64,000 nt of DNA, taken from NCBI GenBank assembly GCA_905160935.1, contig CAJHZI010000892.1:62001-126000 (forward strand), given 5' to 3'. The notes beneath the pieces were generated by a model. The model saw nothing but the letters and a program-made list of their open reading frames with translations. It did no database searches and was not told where the DNA came from. Of this stretch, positions 1-51,212 are shown piece by piece (position 1 is the stretch's first letter; every line of letters begins with the position of its first letter). The translations under genes and the position numbers were made by a program. The stretch is from Enchytraeus crypticus. Lineage: Eukaryota > Annelida > Clitellata > Enchytraeida > Enchytraeidae.

Positions 1-3000
1 ATCGCGGGAGATTCGAATGGGAACATCACACTGTGGAGTCACGATGGAAGCGGTGGGTTTATTCTCAATCAGGAGATTTCTGATCAACTGCATGGGGCTC
101 ATGAGGTATAATAAAATACTGACACCTATGTAATATTATTATAGAATTATAAAAACTAGAATACTATCGTTTGTAATCAATAACCTGTTGAATAGTTTTA
201 CATTTAAACTTTTGAATTCGTTAATAGAAGAGAGAGGACCGTAAGGTCATGAGCTTATGAGCCTCAGATCTGCCTCATATCTTTCATTCATCTCGATCAG
301 TTGGTTCCTTGTAGACTTCGCTCTCTGTCCTCTCTCTCTCTCTCTATCTCTCTTAGTGGACCTATTGGCAGGTCCATGGTATATAACGCCATGATATACC
401 ATACTATTCCCGAGAGAGAGAGATGCTTTGATATGCTTTGCTCCTTCCTCTGTATTATGATTGCTTCTTGTATTTCAATAGATTGAAAAGTCTACGTTGA
501 GAGAATTGTTAATTTTCTTTCAGAAATATCTCTTTCGTTGTTTAACTGTTCAGCAGTCGATTTTGTCGCTTTGCCTAACTGAGAATGGAACCTTGATCTC
601 TGGTGGTGGAAGTCAAATACGCTACTGGGATGTCTATAAAAATTACGATCTAATCAGCACAAAAATGGTGAGTCGTCTATTTGCATAAATTTCACCTACA
701 CCTCGTCATCTCGAGCTCTACAGTAAAATTTAGTCGACGCCTGTTTCGCAATTGAACAGAAGTTGTAATCGAGATAGTCTATTTCTCTGACATATAGCCT
801 ATTTCTCTGAAATATAGCCTATTTCTCTGACATATAGCCTATTTCTCTGAAATATAGCCTATTTCTCTGACATATAGCCTATTTCTCTGAAATATTGCCT
901 ATTTCTCTGACATACCCTATTTCTCTGACATATAGCTTATTTCTCTGAAATATATCCTATTTCTCTGATATATAGCCTATTTCTCTGACATATAGCCTAT
1001 TTCTCTTAAATATAGCCTATTTCTCTGAAATATAGCCTATTTCTCTGACATATAGCCTATTTCTCTGAAATATAGCCTATTTCTCTGAAATATAGCCTAT
1101 TTCTCTGATATATAGTCTATTTCTCTGAAATATAGCCTATTTCTCTTAAATATAGCCTATTTCTCTGACATATAGCCTATTTCTCTGAAATATAGCCTAT
1201 TTCTCTGACATATACCCTATTTCTCTGACATATAGCCTATTTCTCTGAAATATATCCTATTTCTCTGAAATATAGCCTATTTCTCTGACGTATAGCCTAT
1301 TTCTCTTAAATATAGCCTATTTCTCTGACATATAGACTATTTCTCTGAAATATAGCCTATTTCTCTGACATATAGCCTCTTTCTCTGAAATATAGCCTAT
1401 TTCTCTGACATATAGCCTATTTCTCTGACATATAGCCTATTTCTCTGAAATATATCCTATTTCTCTGAAATATAGCCTATTTCTCTGACATATAGCCTAT
1501 TTCTCTTAAATATAGCCTATTTCTCTGACATATAGCTTATATCTCTGAAATATATCCCATTTCTCTGACAGATAGCCTATGTCTCTGAAATATAGCCTAT
1601 TTCTCTTAAATATAGCCTATTTCTCTTATATATAGCCTATTTCTCTGACATATAGCCTATTTCTCTGAAATATAGCCTATTTCTCTGAAATATAGCCTAT
1701 TTCTCTGATATATAGTCTATTTCTCTGAAATATAGCCTATTTCTCTTAAATATAGCCTATTTCTCTGACATATAGCCTATTTCTCTTAAATATAGCCTAT
1801 TTCTCTGAAATATAGCCTATTTCTCTGATATATAGCCTATTTCTCTGAAATATAGCCTATTTCTCTTAAATATAGTCTATTTCTCTGAAATATAGCCTAT
1901 TTCTCTTAAATATAGCCTATTTCTCTGACATATAGCCTATTTCTCTGAAATATAGCCTATTTCTCTGACATATAGCCTATTTCTCTGAAATATAGCCTAT
2001 TTCTCTGACATGTAGCCTATTTCTCTGAAATATAGCCTATTTCTTTGACATATACCCTATTTCTCTGACATATAGCTTATTTCTCTGAAATGTATCCTAT
2101 TTCTCTGATATATAGCCTATTTCTCTGAAATATAGCTTATTTCTCTGAAATATAGCCTATTTCTCTGATATATAGCCTATTTCTCTTAAATATAGCCTAT
2201 TTCTCTGAAATATAGCCTATTTCTCTGATATATAGCCTATTTCTCTGAAATATAGCCTATTTCTCTTAAATATAGTCTATTTCTCTGAAATATAGCCTAT
2301 TTCTCTTAAATATAGCCTATTTCTCTGACATATAGCCTATTTCTCTGAAATATAGCCTATTTCTCTGACATATAGCCTATTTCTCTGAAATATAGCCTAT
2401 TTCTCTGACTATAGCCTATTTCTCTGAAATATAGCCTATTTCTCTGATATAGCCTATTTCTCTGAAATATAGCCTATTTCTCTGACATATAGCCTATTTC
2501 TCTGAAATATAGCCTATTTCTCTGAAATATAGCCTATTTCTCTGAAATATAGCCTATTTCTCTGAAATATATATAGCCTATTTCTCTGAAATATAGCCTA
2601 TTTCTCTGACATATAGCCTATTTCTCTGAAATATAGCCTATTTCTCTGACATATACCCTATTTCTCTGACATATAGCCTATTTCTCTGAAATATATCCTA
2701 TTTCTCTGAAATATAGCCTATTTCTCTGACATATAGCTTATATCTCTGAAATATATCCCATTTCTCTGACAGATAGCCTATGTCTCTGAAATATAGCCTA
2801 TTTCTCTTAAATATAGCCTATTTCTCTTATATATAGCCTATTTCTCTGACATATAGCCTATTTCTCTTAAATATAGCCAATTTCTCTGACATATACCCTA
2901 TTTCTCTGACATATAGCCTATTTCTCCGAAATATATCCTATTTCTCTGAAATATAGCCTATTTCTCTGACATATAGCCTATTTCTCTTAAATATAGCCTA

Positions 3001-6000
3001 TTTCTCTGACATATAGCTTATATCTCTGAAATATATCCCATTTCTCTGACAGATAGCCTATGTCTCTGAAATATAGCCTATTTCTCTTAAATATAGCCTA
3101 TTTCTCTTATATATAGCCTATTTCTCTGACATATAGCCTATTTCTCTTAAATATAGCCTATTTCTCTGACATATAGCCTATTTCTCTGAAATATAGCCTA
3201 TTTCTCTGAAATATAGCCTATTTCTCTGATATATAGCCTATTTCTCTGAAATATAGCCTATTTCTCTTAAATATAGCCTATTTCTCTGACATATAGCCTA
3301 TTTCTCTGAAATATAGCCTATTTCTCTGACATATAGCCAAATTCTCTGAAATATAGCCTATTTCTCTGACATATAGCCTATTTCTCTGAAATATAGCCTA
3401 TTTCTCTGACATATACCCTATTTCTCTGACATATAGCTTATTTCTCTGAAATATATCCTATTTCTCTTAAATATAGCCTATTTCTCTGACATATAGCTTA
3501 TATCTCTGAAATATATCCCATTTCTCTGACAGATAGCCTATGTCTCTGAAATATAGCCTATTTCTCTTAAATATAGCCTATTTCTCTTATGTATAGCCTA
3601 TTTCTCTGACATATAGCCTATTTCTCTTAAATATAGCCTATTTCTCTGACATATAGCCTATTTCTCTTAAATATAGCCTATTTCTCTGAAATATAGCCTA
3701 TTTCTCTGATATATAGCCTATTTCTCTTAAATATAGCCTATTTCTCTTAAATATAGTCTATTTCTCTGAAATATAGCCTATTTCTCTTAAATATAGCCTA
3801 TTTCTCTGACATATAGCCTATTTCTCTGAAATATGGCCTATTTCTCTGACATATAGCCTATTTCTCTGAAATATAGCCTATTTCTCTGATATATAGCCTA
3901 TTTCTCTGAAATATAGCCTATTTCTTTGACATATACCCTAATATAGTTATTTCTCTGAAATATCTATTCTCTGCCTATTTCTCTGAAATATAGCTTATTA
4001 TCTGATATAGCCTATTTCTCTGACATATAGCCTATTTCTCTTAAATATAGCCTATTTCTCTGAAATATAGGCCTATTTCTCTGACATATAGCCTATTTCT
4101 CTGAAATATAGCCTATTTCTCTGATATATAGCCTATTTCTCTGAAATATAGCCTATTTCTCTGACATATAGCCTATTTCTCTGATATATAGCCTATTTCT
4201 CTGAAATATAGCCTATTTCTCTGAAATATAGCCTATTTCTCTGATATATAGCCTATTTCTCTGAAATATAGCCTATTTCTCTGACATATAGCCTATTTCT
4301 CTGAAATATAGCCTATTTCTCTGACATATAGCCTATTTCTCTGAAATATAGCCTATTTCTCTGACATATAGCCTATTTCTCTGAAATATAGCCTATTTCT
4401 CTGACATATAGCCTATTTCTCTGAAATATAGCCTATTTCTCTGAAATATAGCCTATTTCTCTGAAATATAGCCTATTTCTCTGATATATAGCCTTTTTTC
4501 TTACATATAGCCTATTTCTCTGAAATATAGCCTATTTCTCTGACATATAGCCTATTTCTCTGAAATATAGCCTATTTCTCTGACATATAGCCTATTTCTC
4601 TGACATATTGCCTATTTCTCTGACATGTACCCTATTTTTCTGATATATACCCTATTTCTCTAACATTTAGCCTATTTCTCTGACATACTAATAACAGATT
4701 TCTTATAATTTTATTACAGTGCCTTTCAGAGAAGCTGATCAGAGTAAATTGCAAACACATATAGAAATAAAATTAAAACAAAATACATTGTACAAAATAC
4801 AAGTTTCAAAATAAAAACGCAAAATACATTGAAAATTGAACAATCCGTCGACGAGCTATATACCTGGTGAGAACTAATTAACTCGTCATGATTATTTAAA
4901 ATCACTGAAGGCGTATTTAAATATCGATGTGTCGTTTTATTATTTTAGTTAGCGGAATCCGCAGGTAACGTAAGATGCCTGATCCCCAGTATGCAGACAA
5001 TCGGGGCTTCCTCTCACAATAAAGTCGAGGCTTCCTCTCAATATAGAAGGGAAGTAGAATCCCTTCTAATTGGCACCACAAACAACACCGTGCTTAAGGA
5101 AATCGTAGATGAATCCGCGTTCGACGTTTTGGTTCAGGTTCATATATTCTCCAATACAAAGTGTATGCTAATTATTGTGACTATTGTGAGTACTTTGAAA
5201 GAAGTTGTAATGCATTAAAAGTCAAAAGTCAGATTCTTAATTCTTTCTTTCAGAGCATCTCGACACATACCAGCTACCGTCACAGAAAAATGAGTTGAGC
5301 ATGATAAAATTTTCGCTTCTCGTAAATTAGTGTCGGGTAATTAAATCACTATTTGGATCATGTTGTGGATTTATTTGCAACACCTAATAGCGGAATATGT
5401 TTAGATTTCAGCAAAGACACAAAATGCATAAGCGACATACAATGCCTTAACAGCAATTCCTACATCTATTGCAAGAAAAATTGTCGTCAGTGAAGAAAAT
5501 TCTCGTAAGTGAAGAAAATTGTCGTAAGTGAAGAAAATTGTCGTAAGTGAAGAAAATTGTCGTAAGTGAAGAAAATTGTCGTAGATGATACAGGGTATCT
5601 TATCTAGCTGACTATCATGATAATTATGTTACTTACAGTTCTTAATAAAGCTAGTATTACTAGAGGAATCTTGGTTTAGTCAAGACATATCGGCTCACAA
5701 ATAAACGAATATTTATATTGTAGTCAGTCCCGCTTATATTGGTGATTTAGTAAATTAGAATATACTCAAAATGTCTCTAGGTATTAGCTCGTATGTTAAA
5801 TGTCTCTATGTATTTCTCGTATGTTAAATGTCTCTCGGTATTAGCTCGTATGTTAAATGTCTCTAGCTATTAACTCGTATGTTAAATGCCTCTAGGTATT
5901 AGTTCTTATGTTACACGTCGCTAGGTATTAGTTCTTATGTTACACGTCTCTAGGTATTAGTTCTTATGTTACACGTCTCTAGGTATTAGTTCTTATGTTA

Positions 6001-9000: not shown

Positions 9001-11231
9001 ATGTTGTAATTGATGACTGTAATTTTGTTATGTTACTTTACGCTATTTAGGGTCACAAGAGCTTCATCGCAAATCTGGAATGGTCTTCAAACAGTCACTA
9101 TTTGAAAACCCGCTGCGGCGATTCTCAGCTAAAGTTCTGTATGTAGAATATATTCTTAGCTGATTCTCTGATCTCTTGCTCTATATTGTTTTGTGCACAA
9201 TCACGATTGATCAGAGATATGATAAATACGAATGATACATACTATACGTAAGCAACTATATAATCTATATTATAATTAAGAATACATAGTTACATATATA
9301 ATTACACAATAATAAATATAATTAATCAAAAAAATTGAGCGTGTTATACTTTTATTCCTCAAAATTCTACAATTTTAATATAATAAATGGTTTCTATTTA
9401 TTAAATTTTATTTTTTAATTAATAATTTAATAATTTTTTATTATTAATTTTATTTATATATATATACATAATTTATATATATATATTATATTATATATAT
9501 ATATAATGTATATAATTTATAATTAAAATATAAAATTTTAATTCTCAAAATTCAATAATTTTAAAATAATAAATGGTTACAATTATATGGATGTGAAACA
9601 TGGACCTTAAGGAAAGAAGATTTTAGGAAACTAGAGGTATTGGAAATATGGATATGAAGAAGAATGGAGAGGATTAGCTGGACTCAAAAGGTTACAAATG
9701 AGGAAGTTCTGGAGAGAGTTGGTACAAATAGACAGTTGATTAATGTATTAAGAAATAGGAATAAGAGTTGGATAGGACACATTCTAAGGCGGAAACATAT
9801 TTATTTAAATTTAAAGCAAAAGATAGCTGTAATAATAATAGTTTAAGAATTAATGAGTTGACTAATGGACGATTGATTCATTGATAGGGGACTTACAGCT
9901 GATGGTGGAGATTGACAAGCCGGTGACTGATAGTGACACACACAAGATATCCACCTCTCTGGGATTCCAGGATACAGGTTCTATATCCTGTTCTATATCC
10001 GGTTCACTTTTATACTGATTTGCTGCCTTTTGGTGAAATAAAGATTGATATATAGCCTTTATTGAAACATATAGGCCTAACTGAGGAAGTCAACGGGAAA
10101 CCACCTCAGAGTCCATACTTTTCCCAAGCTATTGGCTACATAAGGTATGGATAAGGTATAGACTTTGTGAAGGGATTAACTTGTTGATCTAAGGAGTGCT
10201 CTTATGGAGCGAGAAAACAGACTTTTACTATGAACATGTACCCTAGCCCTGCCACTTGGCAGTGCACTGAAGTGAGACAGAGATAGGCCTATCATCAGAG
10301 TTAAGTAGCTAAATAATTAATTCAAATAATTGCATAATTTAGACGTAAGACTGGATTGGAATGTAGTCTTTGAATGGAAAGAAGGAAGATAGTAATAGGG
10401 TAGCAGCGATAAGAAAAGTTAATAACTGAAGTTGGGTAAAAATGTGGACTAACGTTACATACACTTTGTTACAATGACATTAAACAGAAGATGATACTTA
10501 TAAGACTAAGAATAGGCGTCCTCCGGTTAGATATCTGTGTGTATGTGTTTGTGTGTGTACGTATGTTTGTGCAGGTATAGCAAGCGTGTATTTGCATGTA
10601 ATGTGCAGATTTATGGTCGATGCGGCAAAAAGAAGAGAATGCAATGGTTGTTAGCACATCACGTGACATGAAAGAAGCTTTGAGAGGAGGTTTTCCCATC
10701 TACGGTCATGCTGATTTTATTCTCTCCATTAATCGTATAGAGGTAAAGTTAAAATTATTTATTTCTAGTAATTGGACAACCGCTTAGTATAGACCAATTA
10801 AAAATTCTGAACAATAGTTTAACCAACAACAGATGCGTAAGTGATCAATTGATTAAAGAAAAGTTAGTAAATGCGGGTATTAATATAGACTCAATTAAAT
10901 AGACTTTCTTCACGACGTTCGTTTCCATTTGCGCACGTTAATCAATAGAACGAATTAATATTAATCATCTTCATCATCTTCCCGTCAATCCCAGTTGAAC
11001 CATATGATCGGATTCGAATAAATTATATTCGACTCCTATATTGACAGCCAAAAGTTCTTTGTTATATTAATTAAGATTGATTGATTGATGTTTCAGTCTG
11101 AACGCATAGAGACAGAGTTAAATCCAAGCCTTGTGGTGCCACCTGGTGTTACAGCTGGTCGTAGATTTCTACTCGAGACCAAGGGACCTGAAGCCATGGT
11201 GGTACAGTGGGAGATAATGTCCCAACAGTAG
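1..11231 (+). CDS. EML: EML-like WD40 microtubule-associated protein, 3' part (10 exons)
   Basis: This is the C-terminal part of an echinoderm-microtubule-associated-protein-like (EML) protein; the family binds microtubules through paired beta-propellers. Exons, all phase-consistent: 1-105 (partial), 554-667, 4949-5137, 6544-6675, 7703-7859, 8619-8722, 9051-9138, 9888-9977, 10609-10742, 11097-11231 (stop TAG). They give about 415 residues. Motifs recalled from EML1-4 appear in the right order: GDSNGNITLW, DGTLISGGG-like NGTLISGGG, LLIGTTNNTVL, VKEVWGVAGHPT, SAAFHPSDPVAAI, FSPDGKLLAAGCYDSNIYL, GHKSFIANLEWSSNSHYL, LKFWD and a final VVQWEI matching the EML VLQWRV end. The exon 5/6 join rebuilds FSPDGK across a split codon. 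The last two blades (exons 8-10) are very divergent. The exon 3 donor is weak (GTTCAT). Exon 2 could start at 524 instead, but 554 keeps the family spacing. The N-terminus and HELP motif lie outside the window. Family confidence is high; the paralogue is not resolved. Confidence 0.87.
325..410 (-). repeat. SINE-like family E fragment
   Basis: CT-rich stretch followed by a module reading 'ggcaggtccatggtatataacgcc', which also occurs at about 8229, 18895, 42660 and 50165. It lies in EML intron 1. The orientation is arbitrary. Confidence 0.5.
774..4689. repeat. 3.9-kb satellite, 20-bp unit
   Basis: About 195 head-to-tail copies of a 20-bp unit (cctatttctctgaaatatag) fill most of EML intron 2. 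Units carry aaa, aca, ata or tta variants at the gaXata position, often alternating as 40-bp dimers. A rare variant block containing 'gacagatag' then 'atgtctctg' recurs at about 1571, 2772, 3052 and 3532. Those spacings are near multiples of 20 bp, which shows larger segments were amplified. The unit has stops in every frame and is not coding. It ends about 260 bp before exon 3. Confidence 0.97.
4690..4948. other. Unique intron sequence before EML exon 3
   Basis: AT-rich unique DNA containing several AAAATA stretches, ending in the exon 3 acceptor (tattattttag). A second acceptor-like 'tttattacag' lies near 4719. No gene seen. Confidence 0.5.
5473..5585. repeat. 19-bp tandem repeat carrying GTAAGT
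   Basis: About six copies of a 19-bp unit (gtcgtaagtgaagaaaatt) in EML intron 3. Most copies contain GTAAGT, a consensus-grade 5' splice core, and lie about 370-440 bp downstream of the weak exon 3 donor GTTCAT. Confidence 0.9.
5769..6506. repeat. 29-bp minisatellite next to EML exon 4
   Basis: About 24 copies of a 29-bp unit ending in 'ttatgttacacgtctc'. Copies are nearly identical in the middle and degenerate at both ends. Decayed units (gttaaatgtctctag) run to within about 40 bp of the exon 4 start at 6544. Confidence 0.95.
6676..7487. other. EML intron 4, AT-rich unique DNA
   Basis: Long intronic stretch of ATTTATTTAT-like sequence. A possible decayed tRNA-like repeat around 7255-7420 (ggattcggg) is too weak to call. 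No coding potential seen. Confidence 0.4.
7488..7632 (+). repeat. Interspersed repeat, copy 1
   Basis: About 140 bp (core 'gtgttcagggcacatgtta') that reappears on the minus strand at 33235-33382 with many substitutions. This copy ends about 70 bp before EML exon 5. Any reading frame through it looks spurious. Confidence 0.65.
8229..8425 (-). repeat. SINE-like family E
   Basis: CT-rich start, then 'ctactggcaggtcc', 'taacgcctccactcttctct' and 'tggatctttaaatcatc'. The same modules occur at 18895-19030 and 42660-42890, and in the opposite orientation near 52555-52612. Located in EML intron 5. Confidence 0.65.
8870..9040 (+). repeat. SINE-like family F
   Basis: Contains the modules 'gaccagcccgtaaacctcc', 'ctttttgctcgacggcttgg' and 'gtgctcgatgttgtaattga', shared with 28155-28300, 41675-41870, 44030-44235 and, inverted, 36695-36845 and 47740-47895. 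It ends about 10 bp before the acceptor of EML exon 7, so the exon's upstream splicing context is repeat-derived. Confidence 0.65.
9574..9815 (+). pseudogene. LINE reverse-transcriptase C-terminal fragment
   Basis: Translation gives the typical tail of non-LTR retrotransposon ORF2-like proteins: YGCETWTLRKEDFRKLE, then RRMERISWTQKVTNEEVLER and WIGHILRR. A TGA interrupts the frame just before RRMER, where relatives usually have an aromatic residue. It is truncated at both ends and lies in EML intron 7. Dead fragment. Confidence 0.8.
10078..10295 (+). repeat. SINE-like family D
   Basis: Modules 'ctgaggaagtcaacgggaaa', 'ccacctcagag', 'cccaagctattggctacat' and 'gccacttggcag'. The same order recurs at 36195-36480, 37495-37740 and 61450-61690, and inverted at 50150-50405. 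Located in EML intron 8. Confidence 0.7.
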
Positions 11232-13366: not shown

Positions 13367-14300
13367 TGTACAATCTAAACAGCATACACTTGTACTATAG
13401 AGATGTGTGTACACTCTACAAACAGCATACACTTTTAATATAGATGATCGTGAACACCATACTCTAAACAGTATGATGACATTTATGTTTTGCTTTAATA
13501 ATATAATTAGCAATTTTGTAATAGATTTTTGATGAATGGGGTCAACGTTTAAAGTATAACTTGCATGGAAAGATTCTTTTGCCAGTTAACTATTCCTTCC
13601 AAATGTGGCAGATATAATTGTCAAATATGAAAGCACGCTCTGTATTCTTTAACATCGTAAATATTCCGTTATACACAAAATGTACTAGTACAGTAGTTAC
13701 ATGTACATGTATCTAAATATACGCGTACAGCCGTACAATTGACATATACACATACAAAGACACATAAATAGACACATACATACACGCATAAGCAGACAGC
13801 TCCTCTAATATAAGCAGCAATAAATCCCTTCATACGACAGTGGATTAATTAATTAATTGATCGGAAAGAATGAATGCAATAGATTTATCTAGCAAACCTA
13901 TCAATATCAATTTCTACTCCATTTCTTATATTTAAATGTCAGATCAAGGGCATACAAATCAACTTGTTTCATGTAAACACAATAAATTTAAGACATTCTG
14001 AAGAAAATCGTAAGATGTACAAAGCCTCGACAATAAATTATAAACTACAACTACGCAGACATGATATAGTCAGCAAACTGTAACCGTACAAATAAAGAAG
14101 AGTATAGATAGAGGCCTAGAGGCTGATAAACCCAAGTTTTTAAGTAAGTTCTCGAGCATATAGGCTTATCTGTTAGGTTCAAGTAGCAGAACTAAGTCTA
14201 ATATGAAGTCCAATTTCACAGGTTAAATCTTCTAGATGATGATGATGGACAGTGTGAGTTCTGAAAACTATACAAGAAATATTGTCGCTGACGTGAAATA
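12840..14300. other. Intergenic DNA between the EML-like and CHMP1 genes
   Basis: Holds an (AT)n tract at 13268-13362, an imperfect repeat of about 50-60 bp at 13363-13490 (motif 'acagcatacactt') and otherwise AT-rich unique sequence. It should contain the CHMP1 3' UTR. No gene seen. Confidence 0.5.
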
Positions 14301-14574
14301 GTCTAGACCTGCCTCAGTCTAGACATGACTCAGTCTAGACAAGCCTCAGGCTAGACATGACTCAGTCTAGACATGCCTCAATCTAGACATGTCTCAGTCT
14401 AAACCTGCCTCAGTCTAGAAATGTCTCAGTCTAGACCTGCCTCAGTCTAGAAATGTCTCAGTCTAGACATGCCTAAGTCTAGAAATGCCTCAGTCTAGAC
14501 ATACCTCAGTCTAGACATGCCTCAGTCTAGACATGCCTCAGTCTAGACATGCCTCAACCTAAACCTGTCTCAGC
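14301..14574. repeat. 16-bp minisatellite that includes the CHMP1 stop codon
   Basis: About 17 copies of a 16-bp unit, on the minus strand CTGAGRCAKGTYTAGA. The gene-proximal unit is CTGAGACAGGTTTAG, which encodes the last four residues and the stop (LRQV*) of CHMP1. The array therefore appears to have grown from the end of the coding sequence into the 3' UTR. Confidence 0.9.
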
Positions 14575-15905
14575 CTCGCCAATCTCTGTGAGAGCTCATC
14601 CTGTAACATTGACAACAAACCATTTCATTATTATTCTAAATTAATATATTTACTCGAGTTGTGTCCGGTTGCTGAAGAATATGCCAATAACTAACTACAC
14701 ATATTGTAAAAGGCGACAATGCAATAATGAATTACATAATATCAAAACCATCGTCAGAAAGGGCATTCGGATGGTAAGCGCCTAGGCTCCAGAAATAGCT
14801 ATAAAGTTTTCTAAAACGAACAGAAAAGAAGCCCCAGTTAAACTGGGATTCTATGGATGATGACCCAAAGATTCTGAACACAATACTGTGCGTAATTTTT
14901 GAGTAAAATTTCAGCTTCAAAGAATTGTTCAGCTGTTTGCATAGAGTCTGCAAGAAACGACCCTGAGAGAGTTTATGTTTATTTCCGAATCACACGCCAA
15001 TAAAGTATTACATACACGTTATTAAAAGTCCAAAATAATACACAGTATGAATTCATATCGGAATGAATATTTCAGTCAAAAATATAACCAGCACATTATT
15101 AATAATTGGTCTATTCTATCAGTAGTAGTAGTTCTATGTATTTGATCAGAAATAGAGGCTACCAAAACAGCGACTAGCGCCATCTAGTTGGTAATATCAA
15201 AAAAACAATTGCAATTGACATTTCATTATGCTGAGGAATGAGAAGTTAAATTCTTATTGATTGATTGATGATGATGATTAGATAATTATAACGATGATAA
15301 CACACCTGTTCTTGAGAAGCCTGGCTGGCACTTCCTATAGAGCTCGTCTGAGCCTGGGGCAGATCCATATTGAGTTCCAGTCTGAATTAAACCAGAATAT
15401 CAATCAATCAATCAATCAATATAATCAAACAAGAACATCAATCAATCAATATAATAAAACTAGAATATCAATCAATCAATCAATATAATCAAACCAGAAT
15501 ATCAATCAATCAATGTAATCTAACCAGAATATCAATCAATCAGTATAATCAATCATATAATCAAATTTGGTTTTAATTATAGCAGCTCATTTGAACTTGC
15601 CTTTGAATCAATCAATCAATAGAACAATGAGGTTAATTCCTATTAAGTAATTCATTGATTGATTGAAATTTCTCATAGCTTAATTAATTAAATTAACAAA
15701 TAAACAAAAACCTAAAACTCAACTATCTATCTATCTAATAATCTACCCTGACCATTTCTGATCATTGGACTGGCTTTTCTTTTAGGACCTTACTTCTCCT
15801 CAGCACATTTCTTTTGCAGATTGGTCTGGTGAATTGATCTGTAGTGATGTGTGCTGTGGGGACGTTCCTGACATCATCCTTGGATGAGGAAACGGACGTT
15901 AAACC

Positions 15906-15943
<38 letters not shown>

Positions 15944-18900
15944 TATTATCTATTATTATCTATTCACGTCACATCGCAGTAGAACCCTGACATCATACTT
16001 GGATGAGGAAACGGACGTTAAACCTTGATTATTATTATCTATTCGCCGTGTCGTATCCAGGTTGTTGAAGAATTGACCAACCGGTGACTGCACGTGTCGT
16101 AGAAGGTGACTAAAGCACTAAGATCCATACCAACATCAAAAAGGGCATTCAGTTGGTGAGCGCCTAGGCTCCAGAAATTGCTACACAAATTTAAACGAAT
16201 GGAAAAGTCTCAAATAGGGGATTGGCTGGTGGTGTGGTGTGGGACGGAGGGGATTTATTTATTTATTTATTTAGATCACCAAAAAGGGTCATTCAATCCT
16301 GTACAGTTCACAAGCAATGCAAACAAACAAGTAAATGCAATAAGTGAACACAATTTAAATGTGAACCATGGTGAATTTAAAACGAAAATATAAAGTAGAA
16401 ATTAAAGAGTTGAAATAAAGAAATTCAAAATAAAGTAAATTAATGATAATAGGTAGGCATAATCATACATTTAAGATCAGTATCATTAATAAATATTTAG
16501 AGAGAGAGAGAGAGAAATATGTTTATTTAATAAGTACTGACGAAGATTAATATTGAAACAGTTAACGGAACGAGATGATCGTAAATTAGGTGGAAGGTAT
16601 AGCCAGTATCTAGGGCCTTGTACAGTGATACTTTTCGCGACAGAAGGTTCTGAACGATGGTATAGTAAATTCCGAAACTTTGTCGAAATTTATAAACAGA
16701 ATTTACAACATTATTTAATAGCAACGAATAGTTGTAACATGAAAGCATATCATTATGAATAAGTTTATACAGAAATACGCAACAGCAATGTTTATGAATA
16801 TCACTTAACTTTAAAATTTTAAGTTCTTTATATATATTGCTCGTATGACTACGAAACTCTGCATGTTGAATTATTCTAATTGCTCGTTTTTGGAATACTA
16901 TCAATTCGTTGAGCAAGGTTTTAGAAGCGTTCCCCCAAACAATATTACAATAAATTAGATGCGGATATATTAGACTGCAGTATAAATTTAACATACAATG
17001 TTCAGGTAACTTAGTTTTAACCCGATGGAGTAATCCAATGGATTTAGCTAATTTTTGTGCAGTATAAGAAATATGATATTGCCATGATAATTTTTCATCA
17101 AGAATCACTCCCAAAAATTTAGTCTTATCTATTCTAGAAATGTTGATATCATCTATGTATATATGAACATTTTCAGAATTATGATTTGGATTTGGGACAG
17201 TCTGTTCGTATCCCGACCCTGGTTAAACTGGGATTTAAGGGAGGATGATAATCATGATGTCACACTACAGTAGAACCCATGTAGAGAGCTATTGAGTTAA
17301 CAGCACAATGACTGTACGTTCACTCACCCGGCCTCGTCAGCGACCTCCTGCATGAGAGCGTCGACCTGGTTCTGAGGTGTGGTCAGAGTGGACGAGGCGC
17401 ACATCGTGTTCTCCATCACCTGAGACTGTACGTCCAGGTTCTCAAACTGCTGCTCAAACCTGTCCATCAGCTGCGATATCTGTGAGACACAATCAATCAA
17501 TCAATATCAGCTGTGATATCTGTGAGACAAGATCAATCAATCAATCAATATCAGCTGATATATCTGTGAGACACGATCAATCAATCAATCAATATCAGCT
17601 GAGATATCTGTGAGACACGTTCAATATCAGCTGATATATCTGTGACATGATTAATCAATATCAGCTGATATATCTGTAACATGATTAATCAACATCAGCT
17701 GATATATCTGTGACATGATTAATCAACATCAGCTGATATATCTGTGAGACATGATTAATCAATATCAATTTGATCAAACTAACATCAGAAAGGGCTTTCG
17801 GTAGGTGAGCACCTAGGCTCCAGAAATTGATACAGAATTTTCTAATATGAATGAAAGAAAAATTCCACCTTAGTTAAACTGGAACTCAAGGGAAAATGAT
17901 GATTATTCAATATCATACTAAGGTCTAATAATTCATGGGAATAGTGTCTGAGGTGGTTTACATTTGCCTTCATCAATTCTTACTCAGTTGCCTATTATGA
18001 TCTGTGCAATTGATGTAGAAAAATGTTAAATAAAATCATTACTATTTATTATTGATTAGTAGCGTATTAATATTTCATTACTATTCATTATGACATTACT
18101 ATCCAGTATGCACACTGGCTTGCTAATAGTGATTCGTTTTAAAAAAAAGACCCTCTCAGAAAGAAAGCTTCTCTTTCTCTACCACCAGAGTAGATACATC
18201 TTCACCTAAGCCTCTAATTATATCATTATAGCAGTAAAAGCTAACCTTCTCCAGGTTCATAGACTTCATAGCGGACTCCATTGCCTTCACTACACCAGCC
18301 ATCGAGTTAGTGACCTGAATGAAGCAGCAACAACAACAACACATACAGCCATCGAGTTAGTGACCTGAATGAAGCAGCAACAACAACAGCACATACAGCC
18401 ATCATGTTAGTGACCTGAACAACAACAACACATACAGCCATCGAGTTAGTGACCTGAACAACAACAACAACACATACAGCCATCGAGTTAGTGACCTGAA
18501 CAACAACAACAACACATACAGCCATCGAGTTAGTTACCTGAACAATAACAACAACAACCATCAAGTTAGTGACCTGAACGATGCAGCAACAACAACACTT
18601 AGATATTAACACACGGACAAATAATAGCAATAATAGCTTACAAATTATATTAAAATTACAAGTAAACAGGGATACAGATTATAAAATAAAACCCAGAAAC
18701 AATACACACAGAAGCACAGGAAAACTAAAAGATTCATAAATATACAGATTCTATATGGAAACACAAAACATTCCAAGACAAAAATCGTACTCTCTTTCTT
18801 TCCCACTATACAGTAGTGTTTCGCCACGTTACAGGTCCAAGGTACATATTCCTACTTAAAGTAGAATTTCTTATTCAGTATGAGCACAACAACTCTCTCT

Positions 18901-25577: not shown

Positions 25578-26188
25578 ATATAATAATGATTTATAATGAA
25601 ACTAGGTATGGGAAATAAATATGCTTTAATTAAACAGTATAATAAAGATATAAAACAAATAGACACTAAATATAACCTAGCAGAGAGTGATGTTTATGAT
25701 CTTGCCCAGGACCGGTATCAGTGGAGACAGAAGGTTAAAGAGGCTGCTCTGGTGTCCACAAATTGACGTTATTGAGAGAAAATAAGAAGAGATTTTATAA
25801 TGAGATTTTATTTTCTTATATATTTTATATATGATCAAATATCGATAATGAAATTGTTCCTTTGTTACAAATTGGGCTATCAACAGATTTGCATTTGGTG
25901 ATGTCTTATGAAAGTACCCAAATTTCAAAGTATCTTGTTCTTGTTAAAGAAGTTTTTTGGATATTTTTAAATTCGTAGGTCTTCAAATAAAGTGTAGCAT
26001 GTCTTTAGCTTCACACTATTCAGTGACTATTCGTTTTAACGTTAATTATTCACTAAACATACAATCCCGATGGTGATATATATTTTACTTAACTTCATCG
26101 ATGCATATGATTTGTTTAATGCTATTGATTTCAGAACATGAAATTTTATTATACATTTTTACAATTTAACATCAGATAATTTGAAACT
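25578..26188. other. Upstream region of the glycosyltransferase-like gene
   Basis: AT-rich unique DNA containing the presumed promoter and 5' UTR. A frame at 25677-25928 on the minus strand has no coding signature. No clear TATA or initiator can be singled out. Confidence 0.4.
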
Positions 26189-28015
26189 ATGAGAAAGGCC
26201 AGAAGAAAACTAATCATATTGGGATGTGTTGTTGTCGTCTGTGTTATAGTCTTTCATTTTCAGTTTCAACGCAGAATTGAGAAAGAGAGAAATCTGTATT
26301 CAAATCAAGATGTTAATGAAGTGTATAATTTCAGGACACTACCAGAAAAGAATGAGATGAACAACAATCTTCACCTCAGTGTAAAATTAGATCACAGTGA
26401 GGGAGAGGATAAATTAATCTCTGATCAGTCGCCAGATGGCACTGATATTGACATAGATGAAACAGTGAGAAAAATTAAAGCTCAAGAATCGCAGAGAAAT
26501 CTTGATGACAGTTTCCTCCCTGTGCCTTTGAGTAACTTAAACACCTCAGTTCTTCAAATCAGCGATAATGTATCTGATAGTTCATTAAGAGATTTTGTAT
26601 CAAGGGTTTACTTAAATCTGAATCAGATCTCAAGCCATTCTTCTAATCTTCTACATAGAAATTCATACAGCTCTGAAATGGTTGCTCTGAACAAGACTAA
26701 TCAATCTGCTTCGGTTGAATCAACTGGTAGTCTAGATAAACCTGTGAATTCTCATTCAATAGTGACTAGGACCCAAGAACCGTATAAAGATTCTCATCTG
26801 AAAATTAAGTTAACAGACCGTAATGGTCTTAGATTCTCTAGTCTGTCAACATCTGCAAGTCCAACTCTACATTCTTTATCTTTAGATAAACTTGACAAGT
26901 TGTCACGTAATGGAATAAACATTACTAGTAATATAAATAATAAAAACAAAAGGAAAAATATATCCACTTCTTCTATTGACAGTGATAAGGAAGATCTTCA
27001 ACATATAAATGCTGATGGAATATTCAATGCTGAGAAGTTTGCTAAGGACACTTTTGCGGAAGATACAAGTGACTTCAAAAAAGAAGCTTTACCAATGAAA
27101 CCCTTTACACAGCTTCATCCTATGAAATCAAAAGAAAATAGCTCTCCCAATGATTTGGAAAACAAAAATGTCAATTCACAATTAGCAAAGGGAAAGAGCT
27201 CAATGTCAAATGTAGAAGAGGGTATAAAAATTGTTTCCATGTCCTTATATGGAACAAATAGGCGTTACATTGTCGGAGCACTGCGTAACGCTGAACTAAT
27301 CATACGATATTTTCCAGGCTGGACTCTACGTATATACGCCATATCACCTGCCAGTACCTCTGCGTCGAAACATCCTCCTCTATCCTCTGACGTAGTGGAA
27401 TCTCTGCGAAATCTCGGCGCCGACATCCAGTATGTGACTCCAGAACTAGACTTTGTGCCTCCGATGATGTGGCGCTTCCTGGTTGCGGACGATTTATCAG
27501 TCGAGAGATTTATAGTTCGAGATTCGGATTCGAGGTTGAGCGAGCGTGATGCGGCGTGTGTGGCTGCTTGGACTCAGTCGGACAAGGCTTTTCTCTCCAT
27601 CAGGGATCATCCCAGTCACGCTGGTTACGCCATTTCCGGTGGACTCTGGGGAGGTTGCCCTGCTCCCCTCAGAAACATTCTACGAAGATCTTGGCTTGAC
27701 CTAATGAAAGGACTTTCGGCGGACTACCTCAGCGACATGAATTTTCTTAACGATATCGTGTGGCCGAAAGTGAAAGATTGGCATTTGCACTCCTGCGACA
27801 GTGTTTCCTGCGATAAATGGCCGTCGGCTTTTCCGTTTCCAGTGGAACGAAGAGGGTATGAGCATGTAGGGGCAGTTTATAATGAGCATGATCTAGTGAG
27901 ACCAGAAGATGCTAAGATATTGTTACGTGCTGAGACAAATGTGAACTGTCTACCTAATAACACAATTTCGGCAAGTGTTCGGTTGACTGAAGTTTTAAAA
28001 TTTCTTAGGAGGTAA
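26189..28015 (+). CDS. Type II membrane protein with glycosyltransferase-like domain (DxD), single exon
   Basis: A 608-residue intronless frame. Residues 1-7 are basic (MRKARRK), followed by a hydrophobic helix at about 8-26 (LIILGCVVVVCVIVFHF): a signal anchor giving a lumenal C-terminus. Residues about 30-340 are a polar, Ser/Asn/Lys-rich stem with several N-x-S/T sites. The conserved domain starts near 346 (IKIVSMSLYG) and has RNAELIIRYFPGWTLRIY, MMWRFLVADD, FIVRDSDSRL (D445-S-D447, a DxD-like metal/nucleotide-sugar site), SIRDHPSHAGY and GGLWGG. I know this pattern from uncharacterised glycosyltransferase-like proteins of animals and bacteria; the sugar and acceptor are unknown. The ATG is the first in frame and precedes the anchor directly. 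The lack of introns, unlike its neighbours, may indicate a retrogene or horizontal origin of the domain. Real gene: high; GT activity: inferred. Confidence 0.85.
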   Translation: MRKARRKLIILGCVVVVCVIVFHFQFQRRIEKERNLYSNQDVNEVYNFRTLPEKNEMNNNLHLSVKLDHSEGEDKLISDQSPDGTDIDIDETVRKIKAQESQRNLDDSFLPVPLSNLNTSVLQISDNVSDSSLRDFVSRVYLNLNQISSHSSNLLHRNSYSSEMVALNKTNQSASVESTGSLDKPVNSHSIVTRTQEPYKDSHLKIKLTDRNGLRFSSLSTSASPTLHSLSLDKLDKLSRNGINITSNINNKNKRKNISTSSIDSDKEDLQHINADGIFNAEKFAKDTFAEDTSDFKKEALPMKPFTQLHPMKSKENSSPNDLENKNVNSQLAKGKSSMSNVEEGIKIVSMSLYGTNRRYIVGALRNAELIIRYFPGWTLRIYAISPASTSASKHPPLSSDVVESLRNLGADIQYVTPELDFVPPMMWRFLVADDLSVERFIVRDSDSRLSERDAACVAAWTQSDKAFLSIRDHPSHAGYAISGGLWGGCPAPLRNILRRSWLDLMKGLSADYLSDMNFLNDIVWPKVKDWHLHSCDSVSCDKWPSAFPFPVERRGYEHVGAVYNEHDLVRPEDAKILLRAETNVNCLPNNTISASVRLTEVLKFLRR

Positions 28016-37861: not shown

Positions 37862-51212
<13,351 letters not shown>

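Follow-up and report, generated by a model that had tools for sequence, protein, structure and literature searches.

How is the start of an exon recognised when the same start is written several times over in the intron that precedes it, and does such repetition regulate the gene or merely accompany it? The question is raised by a CHMP1 gene of Enchytraeus crypticus, located on the minus strand of a 64,000-nt stretch of contig CAJHZI010000892.1 (assembly GCA_905160935.1, positions 62,001–126,000; hereafter the window). The gene is CHMP1B-like (PDB 8v2q, E = 6e-86; Pfam Snf7, E = 2e-18), and hand splicing yields an open reading frame of seven coding exons encoding 201 residues. Relatives of CHMP1 were sought in viral contigs, and none was confirmed. 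A lancelet origin of the window was rejected on mitochondrial gene order: contig C802 of the same genome reads ND3-ND2-COX1-COX2-COX3, with tRNA-Asn following COX1 and the tRNAs for Asp, Tyr and Gly preceding COX3 (COX1 assigned by Pfam, the other genes by reading), an annelid arrangement; for Enchytraeus crypticus a Lumbricus-like order has been published (PMC8460440).

Decoy acceptors upstream of CHMP1 exon 4

Intron 3 of CHMP1 spans 871 nt and holds at its 3′ end six decoy units, each consisting of a GTT-rich tract, CAG, and a copy of exon 4's opening 19 bases (Table 1). A seventh copy, at 18296, is the true exon start and alone is continuous with the exon 4 body. With up to three mismatches allowed, GTCACTAACTCGATGGCTG occurs seven times in the window, always on the minus strand (four exact copies, three with one or two mismatches), and never in 100 dinucleotide shuffles, confirming the seven copies, the final one joined to the exon, that the first-pass annotation had reported. 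An exact search of the species' own genome (524 Mb) returned just the four exact copies, so that the exact unit occupies a single place. The steps, counted from the 5′ side, are 36, 42, 42, 39, 50 and 50 nt, as had been claimed; the tract is 8 nt longer in the 50-nt units than in the 42-nt units, and slippage of GTT triplets would be the simplest cause of the steps that are multiples of three. Two copies in the centre match perfectly over 55 nt and the outermost stands at 65%, a pattern resembling concerted repeat turnover. NAGNAG-type tandem acceptors lie only a few nucleotides apart; assignment to this type was rejected at exon 4, where the steps are 36–50 nt.

Table 1. Positions of the exons, acceptor arrays and neighbouring repeats. 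Window coordinates; a slash marks the predicted splice boundary.
Feature	Position	Strand	Evidence
CHMP1 exon 4, 69 nt, phase 0/0, VTNSMAGVVKAMESAMKSMNLEK	18246..18314	-	spliced ORF; CHMP1B match
Authentic CAG acceptor of exon 4	18315..18317	-	
Array of six decoy acceptor units	18315..18600	-	
Decoy 1, exon-start copy, exact; shares with the real site the 23-mer across the acceptor	18346..18364	-	
Decoy 2, exon-start copy, 2 mismatches	18396..18414	-	
Decoy 3, exon-start copy, exact	18435..18453	-	
Decoy 4, exon-start copy, exact	18477..18495	-	
Decoy 5, exon-start copy, 1 mismatch; CAG/GTAACT also donor-like	18519..18537	-	
Decoy 6, exon-start copy, 2 mismatches	18555..18573	-	
CACTAAC in last decoy, best branch-point candidate; A 42 nt upstream of real acceptor	18356..18362	-	
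CHMP1 exon 5	17328..17479	-	spliced ORF
Second acceptor-spanning array, seven decoys CAG/ATAT..CAGCTGAT before exon 5	17466..17767	-	
CHMP1 exon 6	15306..15381	-	
30/64-bp repeat, ends 21 nt before CHMP1 exon 6 acceptor; no exon copy	15403..15552	-	
16-bp repeat just past CHMP1 stop codon; units resemble last coding bases	14300..14556	-	by eye
23-bp repeat from GPCR exon 3 donor; no exon copy found	38995..39578	-	
73-bp repeat from 4 nt past GPCR exon 2 donor; no exon copy found	48298..48448	-	
12-bp repeat beginning at an EML-like WD40 donor; no exon copy found	9977..10005	+	
(TTGA)n upstream of window exons	17479, 15381, 9888, 11097		
(TTGA)n upstream of loci L024–L028, L041, L043, L046, L050, L054, L055, L060, L068 and L071			

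The decoys are credible splice sites in their own right. Scored with a small own-genome weight matrix built from 15 local acceptors, they reach 9.2–11.6 against 9.89 for the real site, bearing out the earlier impression of equal quality; the AG is kept in all six, and the nearest decoy matches the real acceptor over 20 intron and 3 exon bases. Joining exon 3 to any of the six introduces a premature stop, at 18292 for the nearest decoy and at 18309 for the other five, as had been foreseen, and in each case the stop falls 275–292 nt ahead of the last exon junction. That the decoys must normally be passed over, if protein is made, is likewise supported. Skipping of exon 4 would leave the frame intact. 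Folding of the array lends no support to an RNA structure that hides the decoys: of 100 shuffled sequences, 99 form structures as good or better (z = +2.64).

These properties, six good acceptors that all lead to a stop well before the last junction, are what speaks for a graded poison-splice switch, one of the two readings offered by the first-pass annotation, in which the decoys would compete and the fraction of decoy use would set the CHMP1 level through nonsense-mediated decay. Its bearing on the wider data is considered below.

The same units could also be read as microexons, each 18 nt long and in frame, that together form a cassette; inclusion would place VTNSMA (or VTNMMA) before exon 4 without a stop and give an open protein of 207 aa. 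Five of the six decoys carry GTATGT exactly 18 nt past the CAG, and this donor-like site, at 4.69, outranks 4 of 16 real donors in a leave-one-out comparison; of the intron's GTs, 12 equal or exceed this score, and 11 of these fall within the array. One of the real donors, that of EML exon 5, itself uses GTATGT, and the score falls to 2.57 when it leaves the training set. The array's own CAG/GTCACT sites outscore GTATGT as donors, an exon of 18 nt would be very short, and the residual intron at the nearest decoy would measure merely 32 nt; we consequently give the microexon cassette scant credence.

Exon-edge copies elsewhere in the gene, the window and the genome

A second array of this type, unmentioned in the first-pass annotation, precedes CHMP1 exon 5. 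Its steps are 34, 34, 34, 32, 44, 44 and 40 nt, the AG is kept in seven of seven decoys, and each decoy, if used, would meet a stop 24–90 nt into the extension. Also unmentioned was the 16-bp repeat that follows the CHMP1 stop codon. Two other genes of the window encode a GPCR (7tm_1, E = 7e-18) and an EML-like WD40 protein (PF23414, E = 9e-43); repeats begin at, or within 4 nt of, three of their donors, where the window edge test found no exon copies. Repeats with a period of at least 9 occupy 17.8% of the window and 3.7–18.6% of each of 13 flanking 10-kb stretches. A repeat hot spot at the window's junctions is not supported, since arrays lie within 20 nt of 5 of the 33, with 6.7 expected.

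Several further elements were noted in the window. A 20-bp unit repeated 196 times forms a 3.9-kb array at 774–4687, and a 611-aa open frame without a Pfam match lies at 26180–28015 (plus strand). By eye, a 231-aa ORF in CHMP1 intron 5 (16527–17222, minus strand; no Pfam match) is a retrotransposon reverse-transcriptase remnant, and GPCR intron 1 holds a Mariner-like remnant at about 49350–50110, with complementary ends (CAGGGTGAGTAAAAAA) and an ORF without a Pfam match.

Exon edges were then surveyed in three families of the same genome: Snf7, CHMP1's own family (12 of 12 hits used, on other contigs), and, as 40 exons outside it, proteasome (20 of 27) and TCP-1 (20 of 57). An edge was scored positive when the 18-mer at the edge of the match recurred with at least 15 of 18 matching bases within the adjoining 250–300 nt. 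Raw script counts were 11/64 edges for proteasome and Snf7 together and 7/40 for TCP-1. Locus L034 was dropped because its match starts in non-coding sequence, and L047 because joining to the next exon places the donor ahead of the matching stretch. Copies then remained at 16 of 104 edges and in 15 of 52 exons, a denominator that retains some other matches starting or ending in non-coding sequence; by family, the edges numbered 6/40 (proteasome), 3/24 (Snf7) and 7/40 (TCP-1). Two borderline loci, L041 and L059, are alike in 7/12 and 6/12 exon bases, respectively, and their removal leaves 14/104 edges. Base-shuffled flanks, three per edge, gave no copies (0/192 and 0/120, total 0/312), nor did exon middles used as a control (0/104; 16 versus 0, p = 2e-5). 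The clear arrays among these loci have units of 42–109 nt in about three to six copies. TCP-1 matches on contigs C259 and C400 share equal scores and spacing, and may represent uncollapsed haplotypes or a recent duplicate.

Whether such copies favour splice sites was approached from two sides. In the window, a similar but not identical test detected copies at 2 of 33 junctions, compared with 16.5% of 1500 random non-coding positions; the window's junctions are no hot spot for copies, lying below the random rate. The edge rate in the sampled families is close to that random non-coding rate, which is what duplication without regard to splice sites would produce. Within the sample, acceptors carried copies more often than donors (13/52 versus 3/52, p = 0.013; 11 versus 3, p = 0.04, without L041 and L059), and this lean counts against blind duplication, as a position-blind process alone would not predict it.

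Fourteen hand-picked candidate exons on the flanking contig added one repeated donor edge and one repeated stop codon, in genes named here from a reading of the translation rather than a database match. On contig C784, a cadherin-like exon end with its GTAGGT donor recurs in 57-bp units, 2.4 times (L011, 181294–181431, plus strand), and the last codons and stop of an EHD-like gene recur about five times in a 48-bp array (L012, 194806–195036, minus strand). Copies of a stop codon indicate that the copying of coding edges is not restricted to splice sites.

Taken against the switch proposed for CHMP1, these data leave it very improbable. Exon 5 and exon edges in unrelated genes show the same anatomy, which is not specific to an ESCRT-III gene, for 12 of the 40 proteasome and TCP-1 exons carry such copies; it also appears at stop codons (CHMP1 and the EHD-like gene), which cannot be splice switches. 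Frame logic offers the switch no help either. Across 14 acceptors examined, the AG is kept in 36 of 47 copies, or 36 of 42 without five out-of-register L030 matches, a retention that is biased high because copies were found by similarity, AG included; the AG-keeping decoys derive from 12 exons, and bases other than the AG are 80–83% identical. The extension lengths of these 36 decoys fall into the three classes modulo 3 as 8, 19 and 9, and the step sizes show no reading-frame logic. There is no sign of decoy purging and none of frame design. The persistence of unpurged decoys fits neutrality, but it fits low-level use as well.

A further alternative is an assembly artefact, in which the length or the existence of the array would be wrong. 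The published Enchytraeus crypticus assembly is described as a PacBio plus Illumina hybrid (PMC8460440), and one of the lancelet "mirages", minisatellite-like duplications of intron–exon boundaries (as described in PMC3087553 and PMC3902484), seemed aberrantly assembled in a draft genome (PMC3087553). Against this, the units of the exon 4 array differ among themselves, the whole runs to only about 300 nt, and arrays of this type turn up on several contigs, leaving an artefact with only the faintest chance.

Branch-point candidates and the choice among acceptors

A branch point usually lies between an acceptor and the preceding AG. For the real acceptor of exon 4, the AG-free zone measures 50 nt and is located inside the last decoy, which makes its best branch candidate, CACTAAC, a piece of copied exon sequence. 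Scored against the branch consensus, CACTAAC is the sole good motif in this zone and the top candidate among 17 acceptors; CTAAC occurs six times in the 871-nt intron, always within decoys. Judged by these motifs, the last decoy probably belongs to the functional acceptor of exon 4. In all 12 acceptor arrays examined, the zone back to the previous AG is contained in the last unit, a direct consequence wherever the last decoy has retained its AG. The branch candidate is weak at some other loci: L041 has an AG-free zone of just 13 nt and L044 has no good motif, so an exon-derived branch point is not a general law.

A further feature of intron 3′ ends is a sense-strand (TTGA)n repeat. Of the 49 acceptors or match starts in the first set, 13 have a sense-oriented TTGA/GATT repeat in the preceding 150 nt and 1 has an antisense one; after donors or match ends the counts are 0/48 and 2/48. 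The TCP-1 exons, tested after the prediction had been fixed, gave 5/20 sense and 0/20 antisense before acceptors (p = 0.047), and one of each on the donor side. Pooled, the sense repeat precedes 18 of 69 acceptors or match starts and the antisense 1 of 69 (p = 2e-5), with 1 of 68 for the sense repeat after donors or ends, a signal that comes mostly from the set that suggested it. Because (TTGA)n repeats overlap with exon-edge copies, and because the sample includes paralogous exons, the observations are not independent. Because TTGAT fits the loose branch consensus yUnAy, (TTGA)n may act as tandem branch sites.

On a broader reading, tandem turnover in this annelid would routinely rebuild intron 3′ ends. 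Units combining a branch motif, a tract and an AG, in many cases with sense (TTGA)n as tandem branch sites, would be duplicated together with exon edges; branch points would repeatedly be recruited from exon copies, and decoys would persist because nearness to the exon body decides which acceptor is used. As a whole, we regard so broad a statement as unlikely, if worth entertaining.

For the exon 4 array itself, another account is likely: it is a mirage, the product of neutral minisatellite turnover across splice sites, and is resolved by exon definition. A minisatellite unit would happen to span the intron–exon boundary, including branch motif, pyrimidine tract, AG and first exon bases, and would have expanded through slippage or unequal exchange in a repeat-rich genome. 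Constraint would act only on the copy joined to the exon body, letting the others accumulate in the intron. As the exon body alone marks the last copy, exon definition is the preferred mechanism: the copy adjoining that body, its enhancers and its donor would be chosen, and the decoy just upstream would supply the branch point (the exon-derived CACTAAC) and the intervening tract. In this account we infer the ignoring of the decoys, the branch point and the mutational process. Overall, the pattern looks like widespread repeat growth tolerated by splicing, not a special CHMP1 switch.

Comparison with known systems

Constructs with duplicated 3′ splice sites are used for studying acceptor choice. 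The CHMP1 array is like them in presenting near-identical acceptors in series, one of which is to be chosen; unlike them, it is natural, has seven acceptors and requires the exon-proximal one. Introns are also said to be gained by tandem duplication of AG/GT sites (the Rogers model; Zhuo 2007; Gao and Lynch 2009). Both processes create extra splice sites, and the Enchytraeus crypticus decoys have acceptor and donor-like ends, but the CHMP1 copies lie within an existing intron and show no new one. In another annelid, the earthworm metallothionein gene is described as having intron minisatellites and exon 4 duplicates absent from the transcript (PMC12783039), and the accessible portion of that report notes no junction-spanning arrays. 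Searches of the open-licence literature, annelids being named in part of them, returned no report of annelid mirages.

The closest relatives are the lancelet mirages, described in the globin genes BflGb6 and BflGb9 and in Adh3, TnC and PGBD5. One globin gene carries 6 and 3 mirage units in two haplotypes (PMC3087553), and RT-PCR suggested regular splicing (PMC3087553, PMC3902484). In both systems the unit straddles the boundary and includes splice signals, an acceptor or donor has several copies, array interiors are homogenised and their ends divergent, and the real copy is recognised by its being joined to the exon. The exon 4 array displays three traits of this kind, namely a boundary-spanning unit, splice signals in its copies, and a homogenised centre with a divergent end. 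The lancelet mirages have been tested for both copy-number variation and splicing.

If the rate of 15/52 exons held genome-wide, there would be thousands of natural cases of near-identical acceptors in series of which the exon-proximal one alone gives the right protein, and acceptor choice among equals would be directly testable in a worm that is already a laboratory model. For gene finders, some exon edges in this species are ambiguous by construction. Set beside the lancelet cases, the annelid copies are frequent in the sample and occur also at stop codons, and exon-copied decoy sequence provides the best branch motif. Mirages seem, on this comparison, to extend from lancelets to annelids, seemingly a new phylum for them, and at an unexpectedly high sampled rate.
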